Below are positions 21,118 through 63,986 of a DNA stretch of 64,000 nt, piece after piece (positions within the stretch are counted from its first letter, which is position 1; every line of letters begins with the position of its first letter). The translations under genes and the position numbers were made by a program. The notes beneath the pieces were generated by a model. It had not been told where the DNA came from and made no database searches. It saw nothing but the letters and a program-made list of their open reading frames with translations. The stretch is from contig NZ_KB905692.1 of assembly GCF_000380985.1 (NCBI RefSeq), positions 186,001 to 250,000 on the forward strand. The letters are read 5' to 3'. Source of the DNA: Proteiniphilum acetatigenes DSM 18083 (GTDB taxonomy: Bacteria; Bacteroidota; Bacteroidia; Bacteroidales; Dysgonomonadaceae).

Positions 21118-21146
21118 CGATGTGGAATTTGGAACATGGGATATAG

Positions 21147-21174
21147 TAATTGGTAATTGGTAATTGGTAATTTA
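21147..21174. repeat. Heptamer array, unit TAATTGG
   Basis: Three perfect TAATTGG units and a degenerate fourth (TAATTTA) lie between the second giant adhesin gene and the next small gene. The period is exactly 7 bases. Similar arrays occupy several later spacers. Confidence 0.85.
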
Positions 21175-24362: not shown

Positions 24363-24433
24363 ACTAAGAACTAAGAACTAAGAGTTACGGGCTTAGGGCT
24401 TAGAATTGGAAGTTGGAGATTAGAGATTAGAGC
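24363..24433. repeat. Heptamer array (ACTAAGA, GGGCTTA, TTGGAGA/TTAGAGA units)
   Basis: Almost the whole spacer is made of 7-base units: three ACTAAGA, two GGGCTTA, then TTGGAAG, TTGGAGA, TTAGAGA, TTAGAGC. The first family is the reverse complement of the array on the other side of the next gene. Confidence 0.8.
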
Positions 24434-25195: not shown

Positions 25196-25237
25196 AGTTC
25201 TCAGTTCTTAGTTCTTAATTCTTAGTTCTTAATTTTA
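25196..25237. repeat. Heptamer array, unit AGTTCTT (six units)
   Basis: Six contiguous 7-base units read AGTTCTC, AGTTCTT, AGTTCTT, AATTCTT, AGTTCTT, AATTTTA and end 6 bases before the next start codon. The unit is the reverse complement of the AAGAACT-type array upstream of the previous gene. Confidence 0.88.
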
Positions 25238-30760: not shown

Positions 30761-30788
30761 AATCTTGAATCTTGAATTTTGAATTTCC
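30761..30788. repeat. Heptamer array, unit AATCTTG
   Basis: Units AATCTTG, AATCTTG, AATTTTG and a decayed fourth lie between iorA and iorB. They are the reverse complement of the ATTCAAG family seen before the aminotransferase gene. The spacer also has purine-rich GAAG repeats. Confidence 0.7.
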
Positions 30789-33175: not shown

Positions 33176-33274
33176 ATTCAAGATTCAAGATTCAAAATTC
33201 AAGATTTAAGATTAAGCCTCAACAAATTTGTGATTATCAATTGTCAATTATCAATTATCAACTGTCAATTATCA
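33176..33274. repeat. Two heptamer arrays (ATTCAAG, then ATTATCA)
   Basis: Units of ATTCAAG and variants (five units and a six-base remnant) run from 33176, and after a short break six units of ATTATCA/ATTGTCA run to 33274, three bases before the aminotransferase ATG. Because no unit contains a stop on this strand, the array is readable as protein in frame with the gene, but I treat it as untranslated spacer. Confidence 0.85.
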
Positions 33275-33277
33275 ACT

Positions 33278-34477
33278 ATGACCCGATTCGCAAGCAGTGT
33301 CACAAATCTCCGCTCTTCGGAGATACGTGACCTGATGAGCCTCGCTACGGCTCCCGATATAATCTCTTTTGCCGGCGGCATGCCGGGAAATGAGCTGTTC
33401 CCACTCGAAACCCTTGACCGGATCTATCAATCCCTCACGGAAAAGGAAAAACAGACGGCGTTACAGTATGGGCCTACCACAGGGCTGCCTTCGTTGCTGG
33501 AGTCGTTGTCGGACTACCTCGAAAAAAAGGGATTGCCGGTAAAGAGCAACCGGTTGATGATCACCACCGGCTCACTACAGGCCATACACATCCTCGCAAA
33601 GGCATTTATCGACCCTGGGGATCCGGTTTTGGTAGAAAACCCTGGCTTTATCGGAGCACTCTCCGCTTTCCGTGCTTATCAGGCAAACCTGGTCTCCATA
33701 CCGCTGAAAGAGGACGGAATGGATATCGATCAGCTCAAAAAGAGGCTCGAAACCACCCTACCCGCTCCAAAATTCCTTTACTATACGCCTAATTTCCATA
33801 ATCCTGCCGGAATCATCTACTCACGGAAGGTGAAACAGGAAATGATGGCTCTGTTAAAAGAAAGGGAAATCCCCGTGATCGAAGATGACGCCTACAGCGA
33901 GCTCTATTTTTACGACGAGGATCTGCCGGAGATGCGGCTGATGAAGGCCACGGATCCGGAGGGGATCGATGTCTGCTACACCGGGTCGTTCTCCAAAATA
34001 TTGGGACCGGGATTACGCCTGGGATGGATGCTGGTGCCGGAAGAGATCTACCGGAAATGCGAACTGATCAAACAATCGATCGATGCCTGCTCACCCAGCA
34101 TATCGCAAGTGATTGCCGACAAGTTTATCAGGCAGGGGGATGTCTACCGTTATACAGCAAGTGTACGGCAGGAATATAAGAAGCGCGGATTGGCCATGAT
34201 CGAAGCACTGAAGGCATCCCTACCGGATTATGTATCCTTCGAACAACCACGTGGAGGATTCTATACCTGGTTACAGTTACCGGAAGGTTGCGACGCGACC
34301 GCCATTTTGAAAAAATCAATTGAGAAAGGGGTAGTCTTCGTGACGGGAAAAACTTTCGATCCCGACGGGATTCAAAATAATTTTATGCGGGTATCATTTT
34401 GCAATACCGATGTGGAAACCATCCGGCGGGGTGTACCACTGATTGCCGAGGCTATTAAAGAAGTGTGCGGCCCGTGA
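33278..34477 (+). CDS. PLP-dependent aminotransferase, class I/II (MocR/LysN-like group)
   Basis: The 399-residue enzyme shows fold-type I motifs: the N-terminal ISFAGGMPGNELFP, the nucleotide-like turn QYGPTTGLPSLLESL, the substrate-side YYTPNFHNPAGIIYS, the conserved VIEDDAYSELYF and the PLP lysine in GSFSKILGPGLRLGW (Lys240). This subgroup includes 2-aminoadipate and aromatic/branched-chain aminotransferases. With iorAB and paaK it supplies the first step, turning an amino acid into its 2-oxoacid. I choose MTRFASSVTNLRSSEI as start because the upstream in-frame extension is a translated heptamer repeat. Confidence 0.9.
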   Translation: MTRFASSVTNLRSSEIRDLMSLATAPDIISFAGGMPGNELFPLETLDRIYQSLTEKEKQTALQYGPTTGLPSLLESLSDYLEKKGLPVKSNRLMITTGSLQAIHILAKAFIDPGDPVLVENPGFIGALSAFRAYQANLVSIPLKEDGMDIDQLKKRLETTLPAPKFLYYTPNFHNPAGIIYSRKVKQEMMALLKEREIPVIEDDAYSELYFYDEDLPEMRLMKATDPEGIDVCYTGSFSKILGPGLRLGWMLVPEEIYRKCELIKQSIDACSPSISQVIADKFIRQGDVYRYTASVRQEYKKRGLAMIEALKASLPDYVSFEQPRGGFYTWLQLPEGCDATAILKKSIEKGVVFVTGKTFDPDGIQNNFMRVSFCNTDVETIRRGVPLIAEAIKEVCGP

Positions 34478-41140: not shown

Positions 41141-41190
41141 ATCAAGAACTAAGACTATAGAAATTCAAGATTAAGATTCAATATTCAAGA
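41141..41190. repeat. Degenerate heptamer tract (AAGAACT and ATTCAAG families)
   Basis: The stretch contains AAGAACTAAGACT and then ATTCAAG, ATTAAG, ATTCAAT, ATTCAAG units. Both unit families are found in other spacers of the window. Confidence 0.6.
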
Positions 41191-41323
41191 TTTTCAAACT
41201 TCTTGACTTCTTTATTAATTAGTCTTATGGGCATATTAATAACATTATAATATTTTCTAATCATGAAACGAGCAAGAGAACTATTCTCACACGGACACAT
41301 GATTATTGCGAGTTCAAACAAAT

Positions 41324-47868: not shown

Positions 47869-48040
47869 CAAAAATAAGAAAACTCAACTTGGTTCAGAAA
47901 GAATTTATGTGAAAAGATAACTTATCAGGAAAAGGAGCCTACCAATAAACTTAGCTAATTATTAAAAGATTAGCGGTAAAACGCTATGTTAAAATAGAGT
48001 TGTCTTCATATTTTTCCACCTTTTTGAGTGATAATTAGAG

Positions 48041-48069
48041 TTGATTTATACCCCGCCGGTCTACCTTTG
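48041..48069 (+). promoter_or_regulatory. Promoter of the susCD operon
   Basis: TTG (48041-48043) and TACCTTTG (48062-48069) are 18 bases apart and fit the Bacteroidota promoter. Transcription from here leaves a ~250-base untranslated leader before susC in which I see no ORF or clear terminator; regulatory RNA structure there is possible. Confidence 0.6.
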
Positions 48070-53264: not shown

Positions 53265-54530
53265 ATGAAACAAATAATATCATTTATGGTATCTTCTTTC
53301 CTGGCAGTCATGTCTGTCTATTCGATGGAGACTGTGGAAGGTTCCCCCGCAGTACCGGTAGATGGTGACCGCGGATACTGGGCCGGATTAGCATACAGGA
53401 TCGCTGCACCTGTACTGGAAAATATGAGTAAAGGTGAACTGAAAAAGAATATGCAGGTGGAAGTCAGCCCCACATGGGATGGACGGGATAAAGATGTTAC
53501 CTACATGGAATGTTTCGGAAGGCTTATGTCGGGGATAGCTCCCTGGCTCAGCCTGCCGGACGACGATACGGCGGAAGGCAGGCAAAGGAAACAACTCCGC
53601 GAATGGGCATTGAAGAGTTACGCGCATGCGGTTAACCCCGAAAGTCCCGACTACCTGTTGTGGAGAAATGAAGGGCAACCGTTGGTGGATGCCGCTTATA
53701 TCGCAAGCAGTTTCCTCCGTGCACCCAAACAGTTATGGGAGCCGCTCGATGAATTAACCAAAGAGAGATATATCAAGGAATTCCAGCAACTACGCCGTAT
53801 AGATCCTCCTTACACCAACTGGCTTTTATTCTCGGCAATGGTAGAAACTTTCCTGATAGAGGCAGGGGCGCAGTATGATATGTACCGCATACACAGCGCT
53901 ATCAGGAAGGTCGATGAATGGTACGTTGGCGATGGATGGTATTCTGACGGGGAGCATTTCGCCTTTGACTACTATAACAGCTATGTGATACAACCGATGT
54001 ATATACAGGTCCTTCAGGTGCTTGTGGACAGAAAAGTACCATTGCGGGACAAAAGCCTGGAATCGATACGCAAGGATTTGGATATCGCGAAAAAACGGAT
54101 GCAACGCTTTGGGATCATATTGGAACGCTTTATTTCTCCCGAAGGAACCTTCCCGTTGTTCGGACGTTCCATGACCTACCGCTTAGGCGTATTCCAACCC
54201 CTGTCCATGCTTTCGTGGAAGGAATTCCTACCGGAAGAATTGTCCGAAGGACAGGTCAGGAGTGCGCTCACTGCTGCCATGAAACGAATGTTCATAAACG
54301 AAGGCAATTTCAATGAAGGAGGATTCCTTCAATTAGGATTTGCCGGCCATCAGCCCGACCTGTCCGACTGGTATACCAACAACGGCAGCATGTACCTCAC
54401 ATCCGAGGTGTTTCTCCCGTTGGGACTGCCGGTGGATCATTCGTTCTGGATCTCTCCCGCGGAAGACTGGACAACTAAAAAAGCATGGCAGGGAAATTCT
54501 TTCCCCAAAGACCATGCTATAAGATACTGA
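53265..54530 (+). CDS. DUF2264 / GH154-like exported glycosidase
   Basis: The 421-residue protein has a signal-like N-terminus (IISFMVSSFLAVMSVYS). It shows the DUF2264 pattern of an (alpha/alpha) barrel: WAGLAYRIAAPVLENMSKG, TYMECFGRLMSGIAPWL, YTNWLLFSAMVETFLIEAG, DGWYSDGEHFAFDYYNSYVI and GTFPLFGRSMTYRLGVF. Members have been placed in family GH154 with beta-glucuronidase activity in an arabinogalactan locus, as I recall. Next to GH105 this points to uronic-acid-capped side chains. No catalytic residues are assigned here. Confidence 0.8.
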   Translation: MKQIISFMVSSFLAVMSVYSMETVEGSPAVPVDGDRGYWAGLAYRIAAPVLENMSKGELKKNMQVEVSPTWDGRDKDVTYMECFGRLMSGIAPWLSLPDDDTAEGRQRKQLREWALKSYAHAVNPESPDYLLWRNEGQPLVDAAYIASSFLRAPKQLWEPLDELTKERYIKEFQQLRRIDPPYTNWLLFSAMVETFLIEAGAQYDMYRIHSAIRKVDEWYVGDGWYSDGEHFAFDYYNSYVIQPMYIQVLQVLVDRKVPLRDKSLESIRKDLDIAKKRMQRFGIILERFISPEGTFPLFGRSMTYRLGVFQPLSMLSWKEFLPEELSEGQVRSALTAAMKRMFINEGNFNEGGFLQLGFAGHQPDLSDWYTNNGSMYLTSEVFLPLGLPVDHSFWISPAEDWTTKKAWQGNSFPKDHAIRY

Positions 54531-54588
54531 TAACACCCGGATAAATGAGATATTTGCACTTTATTTTAACAAACAAACTCTCTGAATT

Positions 54589-55749
54589 ATGAACTACAAG
54601 TTTTACGATTTGTCTGTAATGGTATTTTTCACGGTAATAATCGCCTGTTTCATGGGGTGCGGTCCGGGTCAGGATAATAATAAACCACCTGAAAGAACAG
54701 ATGTAAAAGAAGTGATTGATATTATCCACAAAATAAACAGTTACTGGCAGGCCAATCATCCGGAACACGGCAATGCATTCTGGCACAGAGCTGCCTATCA
54801 TACCGGTAATATGGCTGCGTATGAAGTGACCGGAAACGAGGCATACAAGGCATATTCCGAAGCCTGGGCAGAACACAATGGGTGGAAAGGTGCCAAATCA
54901 GACAATAAGGAGAACTGGAGGTATTCATATGGGGAGTCTGACGATTTTGTGCTTTTCGGAGATTGGCAGATCTGTTTCCAGGTATATGTCGACCTGTATA
55001 ATCTGGATGAGACAAAAGACGAAAGAAAGATTGCACGAGCAAAAGAGGTGATGGAATACCAGATGAGCACACCGCAGAATGATTACTGGTGGTGGGCTGA
55101 TGGCCTTTATATGGTGATGCCGGTGATGACAAAACTATACAATATAACTGGAAACGAACTGTATCTGAGTAAACTTCATGAATATTTCTCCTTTGCAAAA
55201 GAGCTGATGTACGATGAGGAGAACACTCTGTTTTATCGGGATGCCAAATATATATATCCTGCTCACAAGACGAACAATGGGAAGAAAGACTTCTGGGCGC
55301 GTGGTAACGGATGGGTATTCGCCGGACTGGCCAAAGTATTACAGGATCTGCCCGAAGACAATCCCCATAGAGATGAATATATAAGTGTATACCGGGATAT
55401 GGCGAAAGCGCTTGCCGGTTGCCAGCAGGAAGAGGGATTCTGGACTAGAAGCCTGCTCGATGCCGACCATGCTGCCGGATACGAGACCAGCGGCACGGCA
55501 TTCTTCGTTTACGGCTATCTATGGGGGATAAACAACGGTTTCTTTGATAAAAACGACTACAGGACAGTGGTGGATGAAGGTTGGAGTTACCTGACGAATA
55601 TCGCTTTACAGGATGACGGTAAGGTCGGCTATGTACAGCCTATCGGTGAACGGGCCGATCAACATAACGTAAGTGCGGGAACGACCGCCGATTTTGGTGT
55701 GGGCGCTTTCTTATTGGCTGCCTCTGAGATGGTGAAATACCTGGAATAA
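54589..55749 (+). CDS. GH105/GH88-type unsaturated glycuronyl hydrolase, lipoprotein
   Basis: The 386-residue protein has a lipoprotein-like signal ending CFMGC (Cys24). The (alpha/alpha)6 barrel carries the GH105 signature WWWADGLYMVMP with candidate catalytic Asp171, an aromatic cluster NAFWHRAAYHTGNMAAYEV and the conserved FWARGNGWVFAGLAKVLQ and ETSGTAFFVYGYLWGIN. GH105 enzymes hydrate the double bond of unsaturated glucuronyl or galacturonyl ends produced by polysaccharide lyases. No lyase gene is in the window, so the substrate must be made by another locus or organism. Its start is 58 bases after the DUF2264 stop. Confidence 0.88.
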   Translation: MNYKFYDLSVMVFFTVIIACFMGCGPGQDNNKPPERTDVKEVIDIIHKINSYWQANHPEHGNAFWHRAAYHTGNMAAYEVTGNEAYKAYSEAWAEHNGWKGAKSDNKENWRYSYGESDDFVLFGDWQICFQVYVDLYNLDETKDERKIARAKEVMEYQMSTPQNDYWWWADGLYMVMPVMTKLYNITGNELYLSKLHEYFSFAKELMYDEENTLFYRDAKYIYPAHKTNNGKKDFWARGNGWVFAGLAKVLQDLPEDNPHRDEYISVYRDMAKALAGCQQEEGFWTRSLLDADHAAGYETSGTAFFVYGYLWGINNGFFDKNDYRTVVDEGWSYLTNIALQDDGKVGYVQPIGERADQHNVSAGTTADFGVGAFLLAASEMVKYLE

Positions 55750-56459: not shown

Positions 56460-59400
56460 TTACTTTACGCTAATAGTGTAACTGTAAGAATATTCTTTAT
56501 CCATAAACCGGTATTGGTCTAACGGTTTTGCTCCCCATGACTGCAATCCTCCCACACCTCGCTGGAACAGGTCTACACACAGGACTACTTCGTGACGGGG
56601 CAACACATCCGACCAGTGCTGCTGTTTCTTGGTCATGCCCGGATCCAGATCTTCGGGACAATTGTTTGTCGCACTTACCGATAATGGTTGTACTCCATCA
56701 ATCCTGATACCTTTACCATTTTTGTTTTTCAATGTGAGCCAACGCACATCGGTTTTATTTCCTGTTTCCTGAGGACGGTAATAGGCGAAAGCCTGCTCTT
56801 CTACCTTTCCGTTCCAGATACCCATGAACGTATCATGTTTACGGTCTACATAGTTTTCATAAGGCCCACGGCCGTACCACATAAAATCGTTATAATCTCT
56901 GGGCAAGGTCATTAACATACCGAATCGCAGCATTTCAGGCAGATCATCCGATAACGCCTTGTAATGTGCCGAGGTGGTAAGGCTTCCGTCTTTATTTACC
57001 GTGTAGGTGATTTCCACTTTGGCCTCTATTCCTCTCAGTTTGACCTCATACTCTGCTTTGAATCCTTCAGTGGTTTCTCCAGAGCTTTTATATTTGTATA
57101 TAGTATTGTGACCGGCCGATTCCCAGATACGGGCGCTGTACTGCATCCATTCCCCGAATTCGTTGTCGGTAAGCGCTCTCCAGAAATTAAGACGAGGCAG
57201 TTCCCTGAACACATTTTGTCCCTTATTTTTCATGCTTAACAGACCACGGCCGTCTTTTGATGAAAATTCATAAGATAGATTACCTGCTTTGACTATGATT
57301 TTATCGTCCTGTTTCTCAACGGCAATTTGTCCGTTTACATTCTTAGCCACAAAATAAGAATTCCGGTTAAGGGTAAATTCTTCTTTAGCCACTTCAAATC
57401 CGGAAGGAATTAATTCAGTTGCCTGATTGCTGTATGCATACACCTGAAGAAAATACTCTACGCCTGCCTCTTCAGCCAAAGCAGGTAAATCCAACTTCAC
57501 CTCTTTCCGGTTATCGGCTGCAATAGATACATTAAAAGTACCTTCCTGAAATTTTTCCCCGTTTTTAAGAAGTATCCATTTGAAAGAATAATTTTCGGGT
57601 GTCAGGGCAGTAAATTTGAAATCATTGATTACACTAATGATTCCCTTGTCCAGCTCTTTTGCTTCAAACAGGATATTCTGATATACTTTTTTAACGATAT
57701 AGGTATGTGGAATATAGTCCTGGTCGGGACTGACAACACCGTCCATACAGAAGTTGCCATCATTCATTTTGTTATAGCCATTCAGGTCGCCGCCGTATGC
57801 CCAGTAGAAACGGCCCTGTTCATCATGAGTAGGATATCCGTGATTATACCATTCCCAGATAAAGCCGCCCTGCATGTTCTTACTGGAACGCATCAGGTCC
57901 CAGTACTCCTGGAAATTCCCCATGCTGTTGCCCATGGCATGCGCATATTCGCACATGATATAGGGTCTTCCGAGATCTTTTGCCGCATCGCGTTGCATAT
58001 TTTCCCATGATGGGTACATGTGGCAGATAATATCTGTATTCCTGTCTCTCTGGTAGGCCTGCTCATATTGTACGGGACGGCTGTTGTCACGGGCTTTGGC
58101 CCAGTCGTACATATCGAAAAAGGCTTTCCCGTTGCTCGCTTCATTGCCCAGGGACCAGAAGATGACCGACGCATGGTTTTTGTCACGTTCCACAAGGCGG
58201 ATAACGCGATCCATGTGTTGGGCATGCCATTCGGGGAAGTTGGAAACATTGTCGGGTCCGTAACCGAGACCGTGCGATTCCAGATTGGCTTCATCAACGA
58301 GGTATATTCCATACTCATCACACAATTTGTACCATAAGGGTTGTTGCGGATAATGGGATGTACGGACGGCATTTATATTGAGTTCTTTCATCAGTTGCAG
58401 GTTGCGCATCATTTCCTTCCGTGTTACCACTTGCCCGGCATGGGTATTGAACTCGTGGAGATTCACCCCTTTGAAGAAGACTTTCTTTCCGTTTACAAAC
58501 AATTGTCCGTCTGTTATTTCAATTTTACGGAACCCTATTTTGTGCGATGTGGATTCGACAATCCTGCCGTTACCGTCTTTCAATGTAATGAGCATTGTAT
58601 AGAGGTTCGGGGTTTCAGCCGTCCATTTCAGCGGATTGGAGACATTCCCTGAAACAGTAATATCAGTTATCCCATTTGCCGGAATACCCGATTTCTGATT
58701 GCGCGAAAACACTTTTTTGCCTGATTTGTCCAACAACGAAACCTCTACCGTATTATTTTGAAGATTATTGGTATAGTTCTTCAATGTGATATCCACACTG
58801 AAAATTCCATTTCTGTAATTTTTGTCCAGATCGGGGTGGGCAAAGAAATCAAAAATACGGGTTTGCGCCGTGCTGTAAAGATAAACATTACGGTTTATTC
58901 CCCCAAGACGCCACATATCCTGATCTTCGAGGTATGAACCGTCGCTGAACTTATGTACCTGGCAAGCCAATATATTTTCACCTTTTCTTATATAATCCGT
59001 GATATCGAATTCTGCAGGACTTTTCGAGTTTTGTGTATATCCCACCTTTTGTCCGTTCACCCACACATACATGGAATTTGTGCCGCCTTCGAAATGTATG
59101 AAAATACGTCTGCCGTCCCAACTGTCGGGAATATTAAATTCATGAAGATAAGCTCCTGTAGGAGAATCCTCCCTGTCGATATGGGGTGGTTTTGCCCTGA
59201 ATCCAAAACCATTGTTCACGTACATAGGGACGCCGTATCCGTTAAATTCCCAGTTTCCGGGTACAGGCATCTCATCCCAACCGCTTACATCGTAATTCTC
59301 TTCATAAAAACCCGCTGGAACGTCGGATACTTTTGGAACCCAATGGAATTTCCATTTGCCGTTCAGGGATTGATAGTAAGGAGAAGAATTATAATCATCT

Positions 59401-59561
59401 TTTACCGCCAATTCTTCGGAGGGATAAGGTAACGAGGTAGTCCGGGTGTCTTCTTTATTGACTGCGAAAACTTCCGGATTTTCCCAATCGGGAGTGTTTT
59501 GCGCGAATAAATTCATGCAAACCAAAATTGAAAAGAATAAAAAGGAAAATGTCTTTCTCAT
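56460..59561 (-). CDS. Glycoside hydrolase family 2 beta-galactosidase-like enzyme
   Basis: The 1033-residue exported enzyme has a signal ending MNLFAQ, the jelly-roll sugar-binding domain (SLNGKWKFHWVPK, EMPVPGNWEFNGYGVPMYVN), the immunoglobulin-like domain, and a TIM barrel with acid/base Glu474 in FWSLGNEASNG and nucleophile Glu538 in IMCEYAHAMGNS. A C-terminal Bgal_small_N-type domain (about 745-1020; WRALTDNEFGEWMQ, MWYGRGPYENYVDRKH) follows. This is the LacZ-like five-domain layout. It likely removes terminal beta-galactose from the locus glycan in the periplasm. It has its own promoter and operator. Confidence 0.93.
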   Translation of the reverse strand: MRKTFSFLFFSILVCMNLFAQNTPDWENPEVFAVNKEDTRTTSLPYPSEELAVKDDYNSSPYYQSLNGKWKFHWVPKVSDVPAGFYEENYDVSGWDEMPVPGNWEFNGYGVPMYVNNGFGFRAKPPHIDREDSPTGAYLHEFNIPDSWDGRRIFIHFEGGTNSMYVWVNGQKVGYTQNSKSPAEFDITDYIRKGENILACQVHKFSDGSYLEDQDMWRLGGINRNVYLYSTAQTRIFDFFAHPDLDKNYRNGIFSVDITLKNYTNNLQNNTVEVSLLDKSGKKVFSRNQKSGIPANGITDITVSGNVSNPLKWTAETPNLYTMLITLKDGNGRIVESTSHKIGFRKIEITDGQLFVNGKKVFFKGVNLHEFNTHAGQVVTRKEMMRNLQLMKELNINAVRTSHYPQQPLWYKLCDEYGIYLVDEANLESHGLGYGPDNVSNFPEWHAQHMDRVIRLVERDKNHASVIFWSLGNEASNGKAFFDMYDWAKARDNSRPVQYEQAYQRDRNTDIICHMYPSWENMQRDAAKDLGRPYIMCEYAHAMGNSMGNFQEYWDLMRSSKNMQGGFIWEWYNHGYPTHDEQGRFYWAYGGDLNGYNKMNDGNFCMDGVVSPDQDYIPHTYIVKKVYQNILFEAKELDKGIISVINDFKFTALTPENYSFKWILLKNGEKFQEGTFNVSIAADNRKEVKLDLPALAEEAGVEYFLQVYAYSNQATELIPSGFEVAKEEFTLNRNSYFVAKNVNGQIAVEKQDDKIIVKAGNLSYEFSSKDGRGLLSMKNKGQNVFRELPRLNFWRALTDNEFGEWMQYSARIWESAGHNTIYKYKSSGETTEGFKAEYEVKLRGIEAKVEITYTVNKDGSLTTSAHYKALSDDLPEMLRFGMLMTLPRDYNDFMWYGRGPYENYVDRKHDTFMGIWNGKVEEQAFAYYRPQETGNKTDVRWLTLKNKNGKGIRIDGVQPLSVSATNNCPEDLDPGMTKKQQHWSDVLPRHEVVLCVDLFQRGVGGLQSWGAKPLDQYRFMDKEYSYSYTISVK

Positions 59562-59592
59562 ACGATTATTTTTATGTGCTTTATAATTTTAA

Positions 59593-59600
59593 CAAAATTA
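59593..59600 (-). promoter_or_regulatory. -7 element of the GH2 gene
   Basis: On the minus strand TAATTTTG matches TAnnTTTG about 30 bases before the GH2 ATG. At the -33 position there is only a run of T, a poor box, consistent with an activator-dependent promoter. Confidence 0.65.
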
Positions 59601-59625
59601 GGCATATTAGTTATTAGAATAAAAA

Positions 59626-59663
59626 GATAAATTAATCAAAAAAGAGTGATAAATTAATCAAAA
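59626..59663 (-). promoter_or_regulatory. Direct-repeat operator, probably for an AraC-type HTCS
   Basis: Two identical 16-base repeats (minus strand TTTTGATTAATTTATC) lie at 59626-59641 and 59648-59663, 22 bases apart, so on the same face of the helix. The proximal copy abuts the -33 region of the GH2 promoter. AraC-type proteins, including HTCS outputs, bind such direct repeats. The neighbouring HTCS2 is the natural candidate. Confidence 0.65.
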
Positions 59664-59704
59664 CAAATTTATTTCATATGACTAAAACTTTTATTTTCAC
59701 TAAA

Positions 59705-59781
59705 GTTAGATATTTGCTCGCCACTGCATAATACAAGCAAGCTTGTCTTCTGCTCGTCTGGCTTGACGCAAATAGTTCAAT
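59705..59781 (-). repeat. Dispersed dyad element, copy 2
   Basis: The minus strand reads AGCAGAAGACAAGCTTGCTTG, then TATTATGCAGTGGCGAG and a TATCT end. The centre is ACAAGC-TT-GCTTGT, where copies 1 and 3 have CAAGT-TT-ACTTG, so a base pair changed on both arms. It lies about 40 bases upstream of the GH2 operator. Confidence 0.7.
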
Positions 59782-59915
59782 GGTGTCATATGGAACTCGC
59801 TTTTAATCATGTTCACTGAAGTTAGTCGTTTTGAGTCGCCTTCGCTCCTCGATTTTCAATTCTACGCTCAACATAGTAAAAACAAGTTTTTCCTCTGTAT
59901 TCGCTTATCGAAAAC

Positions 59916-59931
59916 GTTCTTGTGTGAGAAC
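59916..59931 (-). terminator. Weak hairpin after HTCS2
   Basis: On the minus strand GTTCT pairs with AGAAC around CACACA, three bases after the HTCS2 stop, followed by GTTTTCG. It is short with a poor T-run. Confidence 0.4.
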
Positions 59932-59933
59932 AA

Positions 59934-62900
59934 TTATAATGCTCGTTTCATTGATTTTATGTACTCTGAGGGAGCCATGCCGTATTCGTCCTTAAAACAT
60001 TTCCGAAAATAGACCACGTCGTTGAATCCGGACATATATGCCACTTCCGATACCTGATATGAGCCGGACAGCAGGAGCCGGAGACTATTTTTGAGCCGGA
60101 TCTTCCGGATAAACTCATTGGGAGATATTCCAGTGAGTCCTTTGACTTTTCTATAGAAGGTGGAATAGCTCATGTGCATCTTTTCTTTGATAAAGGCAAT
60201 ATCGAGGTCTTCCATTTCAATATTATTCTCTACAATCTCGGTGAGTTTATTTAGAAACTCTTTATCCAATTTACTGATCTTTAGAGGTTCTTCCGCTAAG
60301 TTATTTTCATGCCTTACTGTTCCCTTGGCGAATGTACTGATCTGATCTGCCAGTTTACGGCGCGACTCCAATAAGTTGTCTATCCGACTTCTCAATAGTC
60401 TGGCGCTAAAAGGTTTTGTCAGATATGAGTCGGCACCACTGTCATATCCTTTTTCCTGATCATAGAGGGAATCTCTGGCAGTAAGTAAAATAACCGAAAT
60501 ATGACTGGTACGCACGTCTTCTTTTATTCTACGACAGAGTTCCATACCGTCCATTTCGGGCATCATAATATCGCTGACAATGATATTGGGTATATGTTTT
60601 CGCGCCAGTTCCAACCCATCTTTTCCATTTGTCGCGGATAGCACATAATAATCGTTTTCCAAAGAGGAGGCAATATATGCACGGATATCATCGTCATCCT
60701 CTACTACCAGTATTACCGGGCGGTTGTCAACACTTTCTTCCTTCTGGATGTCCTGTTCTTCTTCGATAATATTAGTATCCGTTTTTTCTTCGGTATGTAT
60801 AGCCGAAGGATAAGTGTTTTCGGTTAATAAACGTAACCTGAACAGGGTTCCTTTACCGACAGTACTTTCCACATGCAAAGTCCCTTCGTGAAGATCGGCC
60901 AATGATTTAACAAGGGCAAGCCCTATTCCCGTGCCGGACGATTGATGTTTACCTTTTACCTGGTAATAACGCTCGAATATATGTGATAAAGCGTCGGCCT
61001 CTATTCCATAACCAGTGTCGGAGACCGCTATTTCGGTGTAGTGATTGTCTTTCTCTTTGATCGAACGCAGAGAGAGGCGAATTTCACCTTCTGCTGTATA
61101 TTTCATTGCGTTCGACAAAAAGTTATTTAATATGGTCGTGATAACGTCCGCATCAAAATAAAGGATACTATTTTTGTCTTGGATATCAATATGGGTTACT
61201 ACCTTCTCATTCCGGGATAATTCCTTATAACGCAATCCTGTTTCTGCAACCAGATTTGCCAGGTTCCCCTTCGACACGGAGAGTTTCCTGTTCTGTGTCT
61301 CGGTTTTCCTGAATTCCAGAATCTGATTGATCAGATTTAACAGGCGGATGGCGCTGGCGTGAATAATACTGATCTTTTTGCTATAGCCTGCCGGTAATCC
61401 GGCATCTTGCACCAGATCTTCCAATGGCCCGAGAATAAGCGTCAACGGGGTACGGAGTTCATGGGTAATATTCGTATAAAAACGCAGTCGTTCATCATTC
61501 AGTTCCTGTTTATTCTGGCTGTTTTTCCTTTCCAGCTCAAGTGATGTTTTCAGGTCAATCCTTCTTTTATAGGAACGTAGTGAGAAGAAGATTACGAAGC
61601 AGGCTATTATTATATATAAAAGTTTGGCATACCATGTAAGCCATAACGGAGGATGAATAATAAAGGCAAGTGATGCAATATTCACTTCGTCCCATTCCTG
61701 ATTTTTCAGACGACTTTTTACTTTAAATGTATATTCTCCCGGCGATATATTGCGGAATGCCACCTGATTTTCATCCTGAGTATTATACCAGATGTCGTCC
61801 AGACCCTCCATCATGTAAGCATACTCGACTTGCTGATTTTGTGAATAATCGGGACTGGAAAATGAGATCCTGAAAGAATTTTTATTATAGGCCAACTCTA
61901 TTTTATTCTGTGGCGTAGGAACCAGAATTTCCCTACTGTAATTTTCTATCTGTTTACTCAATGCCAGACATTCTATAATTTGCACAGGAACCACTTTCCG
62001 TTTTTCTTTCGTTAATTCTTCAGGATTAAAATAGCAGACACCATTGAGTGAACCAAAGAAAAGGATGCCGTCTTCCCTGAGACTTGCAGCACCATTGGTA
62101 AAATCTCCGATAGGAGTACCGTCCTGATGGTTGTAATTATTAAACTTTTCTCCGTTCCATAGTGAAATACCGGCATTGGTACTGATCCAGATATTTCCCA
62201 TATCATCTTGCTGAATGGCACGAACAAAAGAGTTTTCAAGCCCTTGTTTTTCATCGTATGTTTCATATTGGCCTGTATCTTCCGTGTTTTTAAAATAAGC
62301 CATTCCATTGCGTGTAGCAACCCATACCCCACCCCCGGAATCCATATAAAGATGATTGATGGCATTTGAGATGAAACCTTTATCCTTGACTATATTATCT
62401 ACTAAATTATCATTGCCATCGAAAATAAATATTCCTTTTCCAAATGTTCCGATCCATAATTTCCCCTGTCTGTCATGGAGAACACTGTATATTGTTTTAT
62501 CCTCTAACTGATCATTAATGTGGTTTTCCTTTTTTATCGTTCCACTCTGGTAGGAATATAATCCGGTTTCTGTGCCAATCCATATTTTCCCATCGATGTC
62601 TTCATAGAATTCATGGACATACTCACCCCTTCCTTCAAAAGGAATATTTTTTATCTGATAATTATCCGGGTTCTGTTGAAGTATCTCGCCAGTAGATGTC
62701 CCGAACCAGAGAATTCCGTTCCTATCGCTTCTTATCTTGTTGACATATACATTTGAACTTATTCCTGACAAATAAGGTTGAATATTGATTGCTCTCTTAA
62801 CCTCATTATCCTGAAGAAGAATGACTTCATTTTCAGTTCCAACCCATAATCGCTGATTTTTATCCATGCATATATCCCATATCTGCCTTTCGTTTGTATC

Positions 62901-63986
62901 TCTGTATTTATCAGTAGAATGTAAAAGTGTCTGAAAAACGGGAGGTTTATTACCGATAAAATCTATTCCCCGATTATAATGTCCAATCCATATATTATCG
63001 TAAGAATCCTGAAACAAAGATCTGACATTAGACGATGATAATCCGTAATGATCTTTTGTGACAGATATATTTTTGAATGTAACCATCCTGGGATCAAGTA
63101 ACGTAATATTGCTGAGATCAAGAACACTGATCCCCGCCATATCGGTACTGATCCACAAAGTACCGTCCTTCATTTCCCTGATATCGTAAATATAGTTTGC
63201 ACCCAAGGAATTAGGGTCGGACGGATTGTGCCTGAAAGTAATAAATTCTTCTGTCTGGGAATTAAACAGAGCCAATCCGTCATTGGTCCCAATCCAGATA
63301 TTTTTTTGATGGTCCATGTAAATGGTACGGACAGTATTACCCGGCAAACTTTTAGGATTTCCTGGTTGGTGGCGGATATTGCGTGCTGTTTTATTCTTTA
63401 TATCAATAATACTCAATCCGTCGAAGGCGTGGCCAATGTATAGACTACCCTTGCCATCATCGAAAGAACACCAGTTCTGGCTTTTCATCCCTTCTATATC
63501 CCGATCCAAAAAATGAGTTAATTGCCTGGTATTCTTATCATAATATTCAACTCCTACATGATAGTGAGTTATCCATATCCCCCCGTCCTCTGCATGTGAA
63601 AGGTGCGTAACATCATTAGTTGCCAGTCCTTCTTCTGTTCTATAATCTCTAAACGATTGCGAGGTACAATCGAAAATGCTGATCCCTTCGCGTTGTGAAC
63701 CTATCCATATCCGGTTTTCTTCATGGTCGTACAGCAATGCATTTAATTCATTACTTACGATATCTGAATTATTTTTTGTATATACCGTAAAATTCTTTCC
63801 GTCGAAACGGCTTAATCCCGATTCTGTTGCTATCCATATAAATCCCTGGCCATCTTGTGTAATGTCGGTAATATAACTGTTGGATAATCCGTCTTCTACG
63901 CCAAAATGTTTTAAAGCCTGCGATTGCCCCGATGCATTAAAAATAATTAATAACAGAGTATATAAAATAACTGCTTTTTTTAACAT
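59934..63986 (-). CDS. Hybrid two-component system regulator (HTCS2)
   Basis: The 1350-residue protein has a signal peptide (MLKKAVILYTLLLIIFNASG), a periplasmic propeller sensor built of units such as DGQGFIWIATESGLSRFDG and HQKNIWIGTNDGLALFNS, a Y_Y_Y domain (YTFKVKSRLKNQEWDEV), a membrane helix (LWLTWYAKLLYIIIACFVIFF in part), HisKA with ITHELRTPLT (His842), HATPase, a receiver with SDIMMPEMDG (Asp1139) and an AraC-type helix-turn-helix (EFIRKIRLKNSLRLLLSG; MSGFNDVVYFRKCF). It is upstream of GH2 on the same strand and may control it through the direct-repeat operator. Its own promoter lies at or beyond the window end. Confidence 0.93.
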   Translation of the reverse strand: MLKKAVILYTLLLIIFNASGQSQALKHFGVEDGLSNSYITDITQDGQGFIWIATESGLSRFDGKNFTVYTKNNSDIVSNELNALLYDHEENRIWIGSQREGISIFDCTSQSFRDYRTEEGLATNDVTHLSHAEDGGIWITHYHVGVEYYDKNTRQLTHFLDRDIEGMKSQNWCSFDDGKGSLYIGHAFDGLSIIDIKNKTARNIRHQPGNPKSLPGNTVRTIYMDHQKNIWIGTNDGLALFNSQTEEFITFRHNPSDPNSLGANYIYDIREMKDGTLWISTDMAGISVLDLSNITLLDPRMVTFKNISVTKDHYGLSSSNVRSLFQDSYDNIWIGHYNRGIDFIGNKPPVFQTLLHSTDKYRDTNERQIWDICMDKNQRLWVGTENEVILLQDNEVKRAINIQPYLSGISSNVYVNKIRSDRNGILWFGTSTGEILQQNPDNYQIKNIPFEGRGEYVHEFYEDIDGKIWIGTETGLYSYQSGTIKKENHINDQLEDKTIYSVLHDRQGKLWIGTFGKGIFIFDGNDNLVDNIVKDKGFISNAINHLYMDSGGGVWVATRNGMAYFKNTEDTGQYETYDEKQGLENSFVRAIQQDDMGNIWISTNAGISLWNGEKFNNYNHQDGTPIGDFTNGAASLREDGILFFGSLNGVCYFNPEELTKEKRKVVPVQIIECLALSKQIENYSREILVPTPQNKIELAYNKNSFRISFSSPDYSQNQQVEYAYMMEGLDDIWYNTQDENQVAFRNISPGEYTFKVKSRLKNQEWDEVNIASLAFIIHPPLWLTWYAKLLYIIIACFVIFFSLRSYKRRIDLKTSLELERKNSQNKQELNDERLRFYTNITHELRTPLTLILGPLEDLVQDAGLPAGYSKKISIIHASAIRLLNLINQILEFRKTETQNRKLSVSKGNLANLVAETGLRYKELSRNEKVVTHIDIQDKNSILYFDADVITTILNNFLSNAMKYTAEGEIRLSLRSIKEKDNHYTEIAVSDTGYGIEADALSHIFERYYQVKGKHQSSGTGIGLALVKSLADLHEGTLHVESTVGKGTLFRLRLLTENTYPSAIHTEEKTDTNIIEEEQDIQKEESVDNRPVILVVEDDDDIRAYIASSLENDYYVLSATNGKDGLELARKHIPNIIVSDIMMPEMDGMELCRRIKEDVRTSHISVILLTARDSLYDQEKGYDSGADSYLTKPFSARLLRSRIDNLLESRRKLADQISTFAKGTVRHENNLAEEPLKISKLDKEFLNKLTEIVENNIEMEDLDIAFIKEKMHMSYSTFYRKVKGLTGISPNEFIRKIRLKNSLRLLLSGSYQVSEVAYMSGFNDVVYFRKCFKDEYGMAPSEYIKSMKRAL

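Follow-up and report, generated by a model that had tools for sequence, protein, structure and literature searches.

The window analysed here, a stretch of 64,000 nucleotides from Proteiniphilum acetatigenes DSM 18083, contains two neighbouring genes on the minus strand. One (56460..59561) encodes a beta-galactosidase-like protein with Glyco_hydro_2 domains and a Bgal_small_N domain, referred to here as GH2 and presumed to be the target of regulation. The other (59934..63986) encodes its presumed regulator, HTCS2, which combines Reg_prop, Y_Y_Y, HisKA, HATPase_c, Response_reg and HTH_18 domains, so that sensor, kinase, receiver and AraC-type HTH are found in one chain. The initial annotation placed an HTCS gene next to the site discussed below, and by its domains HTCS2 is indeed a complete hybrid two-component system whose HTH is of the AraC type. 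Just beyond the window edge, 420 bp from the start codon of HTCS2, begins a susC gene that is divergent from it; this susC is followed by genes for a SusD-like protein, a second SusC/SusD pair, an F5/8-type protein and a GH43/GH16-type enzyme. Our guess is that the divergent susC and the genes behind it form one operon, and it is likewise a guess that their substrate is galactan-like.

Between HTCS2 and GH2, the word TTTTGATTAATTTATC occurs twice on the minus strand, at 59663-59648 (distal half-site) and at 59641-59626 (proximal half-site), with 0 mismatches and a start-to-start distance of 22 bp. The proximal copy abuts the -33 region and ends 25 bp ahead of the -7 box TAATTTTG (59593..59600, minus strand), which was assigned to GH2 by consensus match. 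The TAnnTTTG -7 box, the type found here, has been described together with TTTG at about -33 (PMC7366714). The 25-bp gap between repeat and box (59601..59625, minus strand) spans the expected -33 place and, read directly as TTTTTATTCTAATAACTAATATGCC, has no TTTG there. Both parts of the original description, two perfect 16-bp repeats with a 22-bp period and a good -7 box lacking its -33 partner, are thus borne out. Judged by consensus boxes, the layout is that of AraC class II activation, in which the proximal half-site lies beside or over the upstream element at a fixed distance from the core promoter. The pair was recovered by pattern search; a general repeat listing of 59300-60000 omitted it.

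The region is AT-rich, and look-alikes of the half-site with up to 3 mismatches number five in the window, a count of at least five being reached in 3 of 100 shuffles, which could point to a chance repeat without function. The longest perfect direct repeat with a period of 16-60 in the real 372-bp intergenic region is 16 bp; none of 2000 dinucleotide shuffles of this region, and none of 2000 shuffles of its 123-bp AT-rich part, reached that length (maximum 14 in both). A chance origin is rejected on this count and, given also the conservation of the pair and its co-occurrence with HTCS2 described below, we regard it as extremely improbable. Between 59500 and 60000, a scan for sigma-70 promoters, which are not the type expected at GH2, gave one promoter-like site compared with 1.8 in shuffles; no terminator, no RNA family at E up to 1 and no plasmid relatives were found in the same interval.

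Several other features of the window can be described separately. An interspersed repeat of about 268 bp (59678..59945, minus strand) separates the last HTCS2 codons from the operator, lies outside the latter and is absent from this place in the related genome G003, and the C-terminus of HTCS2 reads SMKRAL in the window and SMK in G003. This repeat has 60 full or partial matches in its own genome, and 31 of 39 genus genomes contain matches. Among 20 copies inspected, nine, including the window copy, reach the left end, where eight start after ATGAAA and one after CTGAAA; at the right end, the copies L122, L124 and L128 read ATGAAA and L133 and L138 do not. Its query positions 167-250 occur as three head-to-tail units, 79 bp apart, at G002:C1:1840510-1840750 and G030:C76:15437-15677. 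Seven short tandem arrays of 7-bp units are found elsewhere in the window (21146-21172, 24363-24383, 25196-25231, 30761-30784, 33176-33213, 33233-33279 and 41163-41192), of which, with both strands and rotations considered, three share ATTCAAG and two share ACTAAGA. Finally, the 421-aa (DUF2264) and 386-aa (GH88) genes behind susCD are in inverted order in the window (53265-55749) relative to G003 (L116:8329-10762), where the gene order was inferred from ORF length.

Sites of this kind have been known since 2013, and the HTCS2 site is a further example. Bacteroides HTCS operators have been predicted to be direct repeats with an average distance of 21 bp, located before glycan-use genes near the HTCS gene, and the spacing of two helix turns was interpreted as placing a dimer on a single face of the DNA; for 20 of 36 Bacteroides thetaiotaomicron HTCSs, motif prediction failed (Ravcheev et al. 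2013, PMC3878776). The pair described here shares these properties: it is a direct repeat of two half-sites 22 bp, or about two helix turns, apart, and it lies before a glycan-use gene beside an HTCS gene. The HTCS_Man motif consists of two 16-bp sites with a 5-bp spacer (PMC3878776), whereas the HTCS2 motif, which belongs to a different HTCS and genome, has a 6-bp spacer. The main text of that study does not contain the term 'transcription start', the passages considered give no distance to a -7 box, and in a limited search we found no published statement of a fixed distance between HTCS operator and -7 box.

A second likeness is to the AraC system of Escherichia coli and to HTCS proteins for which binding has been demonstrated. 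The araI1 and araI2 half-sites are direct repeats of 17 bp at a distance of about 21 bp, and I2 is located at the -35 region. As at GH2, the repeats are about two turns apart, the proximal one lies beside the upstream promoter element and an AraC-type HTH pair is involved; in contrast, the promoter is of the -10/-35 rather than the -7/-33 type, and AraC is a soluble arabinose-binding protein rather than a membrane hybrid kinase. I1 and I2 are adjacent operators (PMC4486848). In B. thetaiotaomicron, the receiver-DBDs of BT4124 and BT4663 bind the bt4114 and bt4662 promoters at predicted sites, and this binding is held down without phosphorylation (PMC11253607). These, too, are HTCS sites before susCD genes, where binding was shown by experiment, whereas binding by HTCS2 is predicted. 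For BT1754, ChIP-seq located binding in the 3' part of the gene that encodes it (PMC3404733), much like the position of the putative HTCS2 operator. The best solved match to the receiver-DBD stretch of HTCS2 is PDB 12aw, a 'hybrid two-component system protein' (E 1.2e-59), a likeness by sequence match.

Across four genomes, the operator is found at seven promoters, with both distances (22 and 25 bp) unchanged and an HTCS2 orthologue next to every one of them. It is conserved before the presumed targets of orthologous regulators. In the own genome, the second copy is found before the divergent susC. In G003, whose HTCS2 is 86% identical, the operator lies directly behind the HTCS2 stop codon and ahead of a 92% identical GH2, and an aligned site before the divergent susC was missed by the pattern search because it departs from the pattern at 5 positions, as counted by eye. 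Prevotella sp. 10(H) (genome G039, locus L002), with a 67% identical HTCS2, has degenerate copies on both sides of HTCS2, downstream of it before a GH2-family gene and upstream of it before a GH35 gene. In G032, the operator lies between susC and an HTCS2 that is 70% identical over residues 1-142, after which it is cut by the contig end (base 3294). When the seven promoters, which are related to one another and hence not independent, are aligned, the half-sites are 22 bp apart and the box lies 25 bp behind the proximal 12-bp core in every case; the gap is constant in length and variable in sequence, and the proximal TGATTRATT is invariant, with the distal half more variable. The earlier proposal that the pair offers a concrete motif for HTCS2 gains support from this recurrence.

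The genome-wide motif search proposed at the outset gave a similar picture. With up to 3 mismatches, the 16+16 pattern yields the window copy only in the own genome, and a degenerate pattern was used for this reason. This full pattern, comprising both half-sites, the 25-bp gap and the box and searched at up to 3 mismatches in 39 genus genomes, gave four matches, each beside HTCS2 (two in the own 4.78-Mb genome, one in G003 and one in G032), and its reversed control gave 0 matches in the same genomes. A search of the own genome for the box with the proximal half-site alone, allowing up to 1 mismatch, likewise gave two matches, and these flank HTCS2. When the -7 box was omitted (3 mismatches), look-alikes made up 4 of 6 matches in the own genome, 4 of 5 in G003 and 3 of 5 in G039, and the reversed control of the box-less pattern gave two matches in G039.

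The presence of repeats before orthologous GH2 genes had been set in advance as a check. Apart from the window's and G003's own genes, 12 of the 20 GH2 loci found are 69-86% identical (L231-L241, L246), and nine of these were judged, L239 (upstream region running into N), L240 (contig end, 50 bp) and L241 (partial gene) being dropped. None of these nine orthologues, which are 70-83% identical and have a readable upstream region, has the repeat pair upstream, and all nine have a TAnnTTTG box inside the stretch read; their -33 boxes are mixed by eye. Their genomes have HTCS-like proteins at most 37% identical to HTCS2, except for a 44% identical HTCS3-type protein in G006 and G009, and the full-pattern search found no operator in them. 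The absence of HTCS2 from these genomes is likely, not certain, because it rests on 16 scored candidates per genome at E 1e-100 and the G032 fragment was missed by this procedure. As far as seen, the operator is thus present where HTCS2 lies beside GH2 (2/2) and absent where it does not (9/9). For three further GH2 copies of 68-73% identity (G000:C6, G003:C1:1533407 and G008:C55), the full-pattern search gave no operator match at these places or anywhere in G008. A different weak repeat with period 22 (10/13) is found at L233, and weak repeats with periods 23 and 20 at L235 and L236.

On the basis of its same-spaced recurrence beside HTCS2 and its absence where HTCS2 was not found, the repeat pair is very probably the HTCS2 operator. 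It could alternatively be the operator of another regulator that controls GH2, such as HTCS1, HTCS3 or an unlinked AraC-type protein, since the genome encodes several HTCS-like proteins (seven matches at E 1e-100, HTCS2 included). HTCS3, a protein 45% identical to HTCS2, has pairs of the TTTGCATGATTT type; these are spaced 22 bp and place the TTTG 40 bp before a box, in the same frame as for HTCS2. A fixed-frame HTCS3 pattern has five matches in 4 of 39 genomes, three of them at the HTCS3 divergent promoter in G000, G003 and G013, where the HTCS3 proteins are 95-100% identical, and the other two in G004 and at G013:C55:147741; a scan without fixed frame recovered the same HTCS3 pairs. Among HTCS3 relatives that are farther removed, no HTCS3-type pair in frame is present within the 600 bp read in L148, L149, L150 or L120, and L151-L153 have a single loosely similar word. 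L087 and L120 denote one place in G037, that of an HTCS3 relative. In L087, a pair resembling TGCATGATT (period 22) has a pair-to-box distance of 39, compared with 29 for HTCS3, and so stands off from the -7 box by about 10 bp, or one helix turn, more. Similar in frame as they are, the two half-sites differ in sequence, with TTTGCATG in the HTCS3 promoter at the place of TTTGATTA in that of HTCS2. The HTCS1 candidate, TTTTGAGTGATA, differs as well, and all four full-pattern matches in the 39 genomes lie beside HTCS2. DNA-binding domain identity to HTCS2 is 97% and 79% in the orthologues that share the motif, compared with 54% in HTCS3 and 42% in HTCS1, the candidate sites of which both differ. 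Control of GH2 through this site by a regulator other than HTCS2 is therefore improbable in our judgement.

The candidate HTCS1 half-site TTTTGAGTGATA lies at 48022..48033 on the plus strand before the susC gene inside the window (48326), with its TTTG beginning 39 bp before the TACCTTTG box of the susC promoter (48062-48069, plus strand), which follows it. This half-site is weak by itself, with 1.2 chance matches expected at up to 1 mismatch. In G003, a TTTTGAGTGATA-type pair with period 21 and without box precedes a 386-aa gene, by its length presumably the GH88 gene. The initial annotation had seen no such repeat before susC and had taken this to suggest that HTCS1 and HTCS2 control different genes. 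The observation holds for the in-window susC and fails for the divergent one outside the window, which has the operator; the argument drawn from it consequently used the wrong susC. Separate HTCS1 and HTCS2 regulons nevertheless look likely from the different half-site at the in-window susC.

With the HTCS2 operator as the preferred reading, a mechanism can be proposed. The periplasmic sensor of HTCS2 would bind a glycan signal, upon which the kinase would phosphorylate the receiver domain. The two AraC-type DNA-binding domains of the dimer would then sit head-to-tail on the half-sites, on one DNA face and two turns apart, so that the proximal domain would adjoin the expected -33 position, 25 bp from the -7 box, where it may touch RNA polymerase and replace the -33 element. 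GH2 would thereby be switched on, and the matching operator across HTCS2 would switch on the susCD operon.

Activator and repressor are indistinguishable from sequence alone, and HTCS2 bound at the site might instead repress transcription, or block read-through from the HTCS2 gene. The G003 site does lie directly behind the HTCS2 stop codon, and the HTCS BT0366 has been reported to bind induced as well as repressed loci (PMC3404733). An activator, however, would be laid out in this way, ahead of a -7 box that has no -33 box and at a fixed register to it; nothing obliges a blocker to preserve 25 bp across seven promoters, and the susC-side sites are not behind the HTCS2 gene. We hence consider repression or blocking quite unlikely, slightly more so than control by another regulator. 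The GH2 and divergent susCD genes are probably driven by HTCS2, and we are confident overall in the reading of the repeat pair as a putative HTCS2 operator that activates both.

A broader question is whether HTCS paralogues with different half-sites share one frame, namely a pair 21-22 bp apart, with the proximal half-site starting about 39-40 bp before the box and the regulator replacing the -33 element. We compared 618 upstream regions, taken from the window and from loci with an HTCS, with exact duplicates removed and L001, L112, L060-L082 and L122-L147 left out. Direct repeats of period 21-22 with 12 of 14 positions matching number 45, compared with about 2.4 in shuffles; such counts are not independent, because the set still includes near-identical orthologues and covers divergent regions from both sides. 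Periods 14, 16, 18, 23 and 24 are also above the shuffle maximum (14, 7, 6, 7 and 8 repeats versus means of 1.1-1.5). At 11 of 14 matching, 29 TAnnTTTG boxes were counted in the span from 20 bp ahead of a period-21/22 repeat to 70 bp past it, and 23 of these follow the repeat at 20-39 bp, counts that are inflated by relatedness; the 20-39 bp bins for periods 14-18 and 25-35 hold two and four boxes. Eight boxes at 0-9 bp from period 25-35 repeats are scattered AT-rich cases in seven loci. HTCS2, HTCS3 or HTCS3-relative loci (L087, L148 and L150 counted) account for 15 of the 29 boxes, and nine of the remaining 14 lie at 20-39 bp. Perfect 14-bp repeats of period 21-22, which are candidate operators, were seen in upstream regions at other HTCS loci, namely L012 (upstream of 5989), L053 (833-1182) and L056 (upstream of 8476).

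Support for a shared frame comes from HTCS2 (7/7 promoters), from three HTCS3 orthologues, which are in effect one case because they are 95-100% identical, and from one half-site at the HTCS1 susC; the L087 pair, about one turn farther out, counts against strict rigidity. We put forward the shared frame tentatively, at slightly less than an even chance. The HTCS2 case pairs a motif with its probable regulator and with two presumed targets, one on either side of the regulator gene, and the GH2 genes with and without HTCS2 serve as a natural control. The searches suggest that requiring a -7 box at a fixed distance makes such sites nearly unique per genome (two in 4.78 Mb). If the shared frame is true, the operators and start sites of many HTCSs could become callable from sequence alone.
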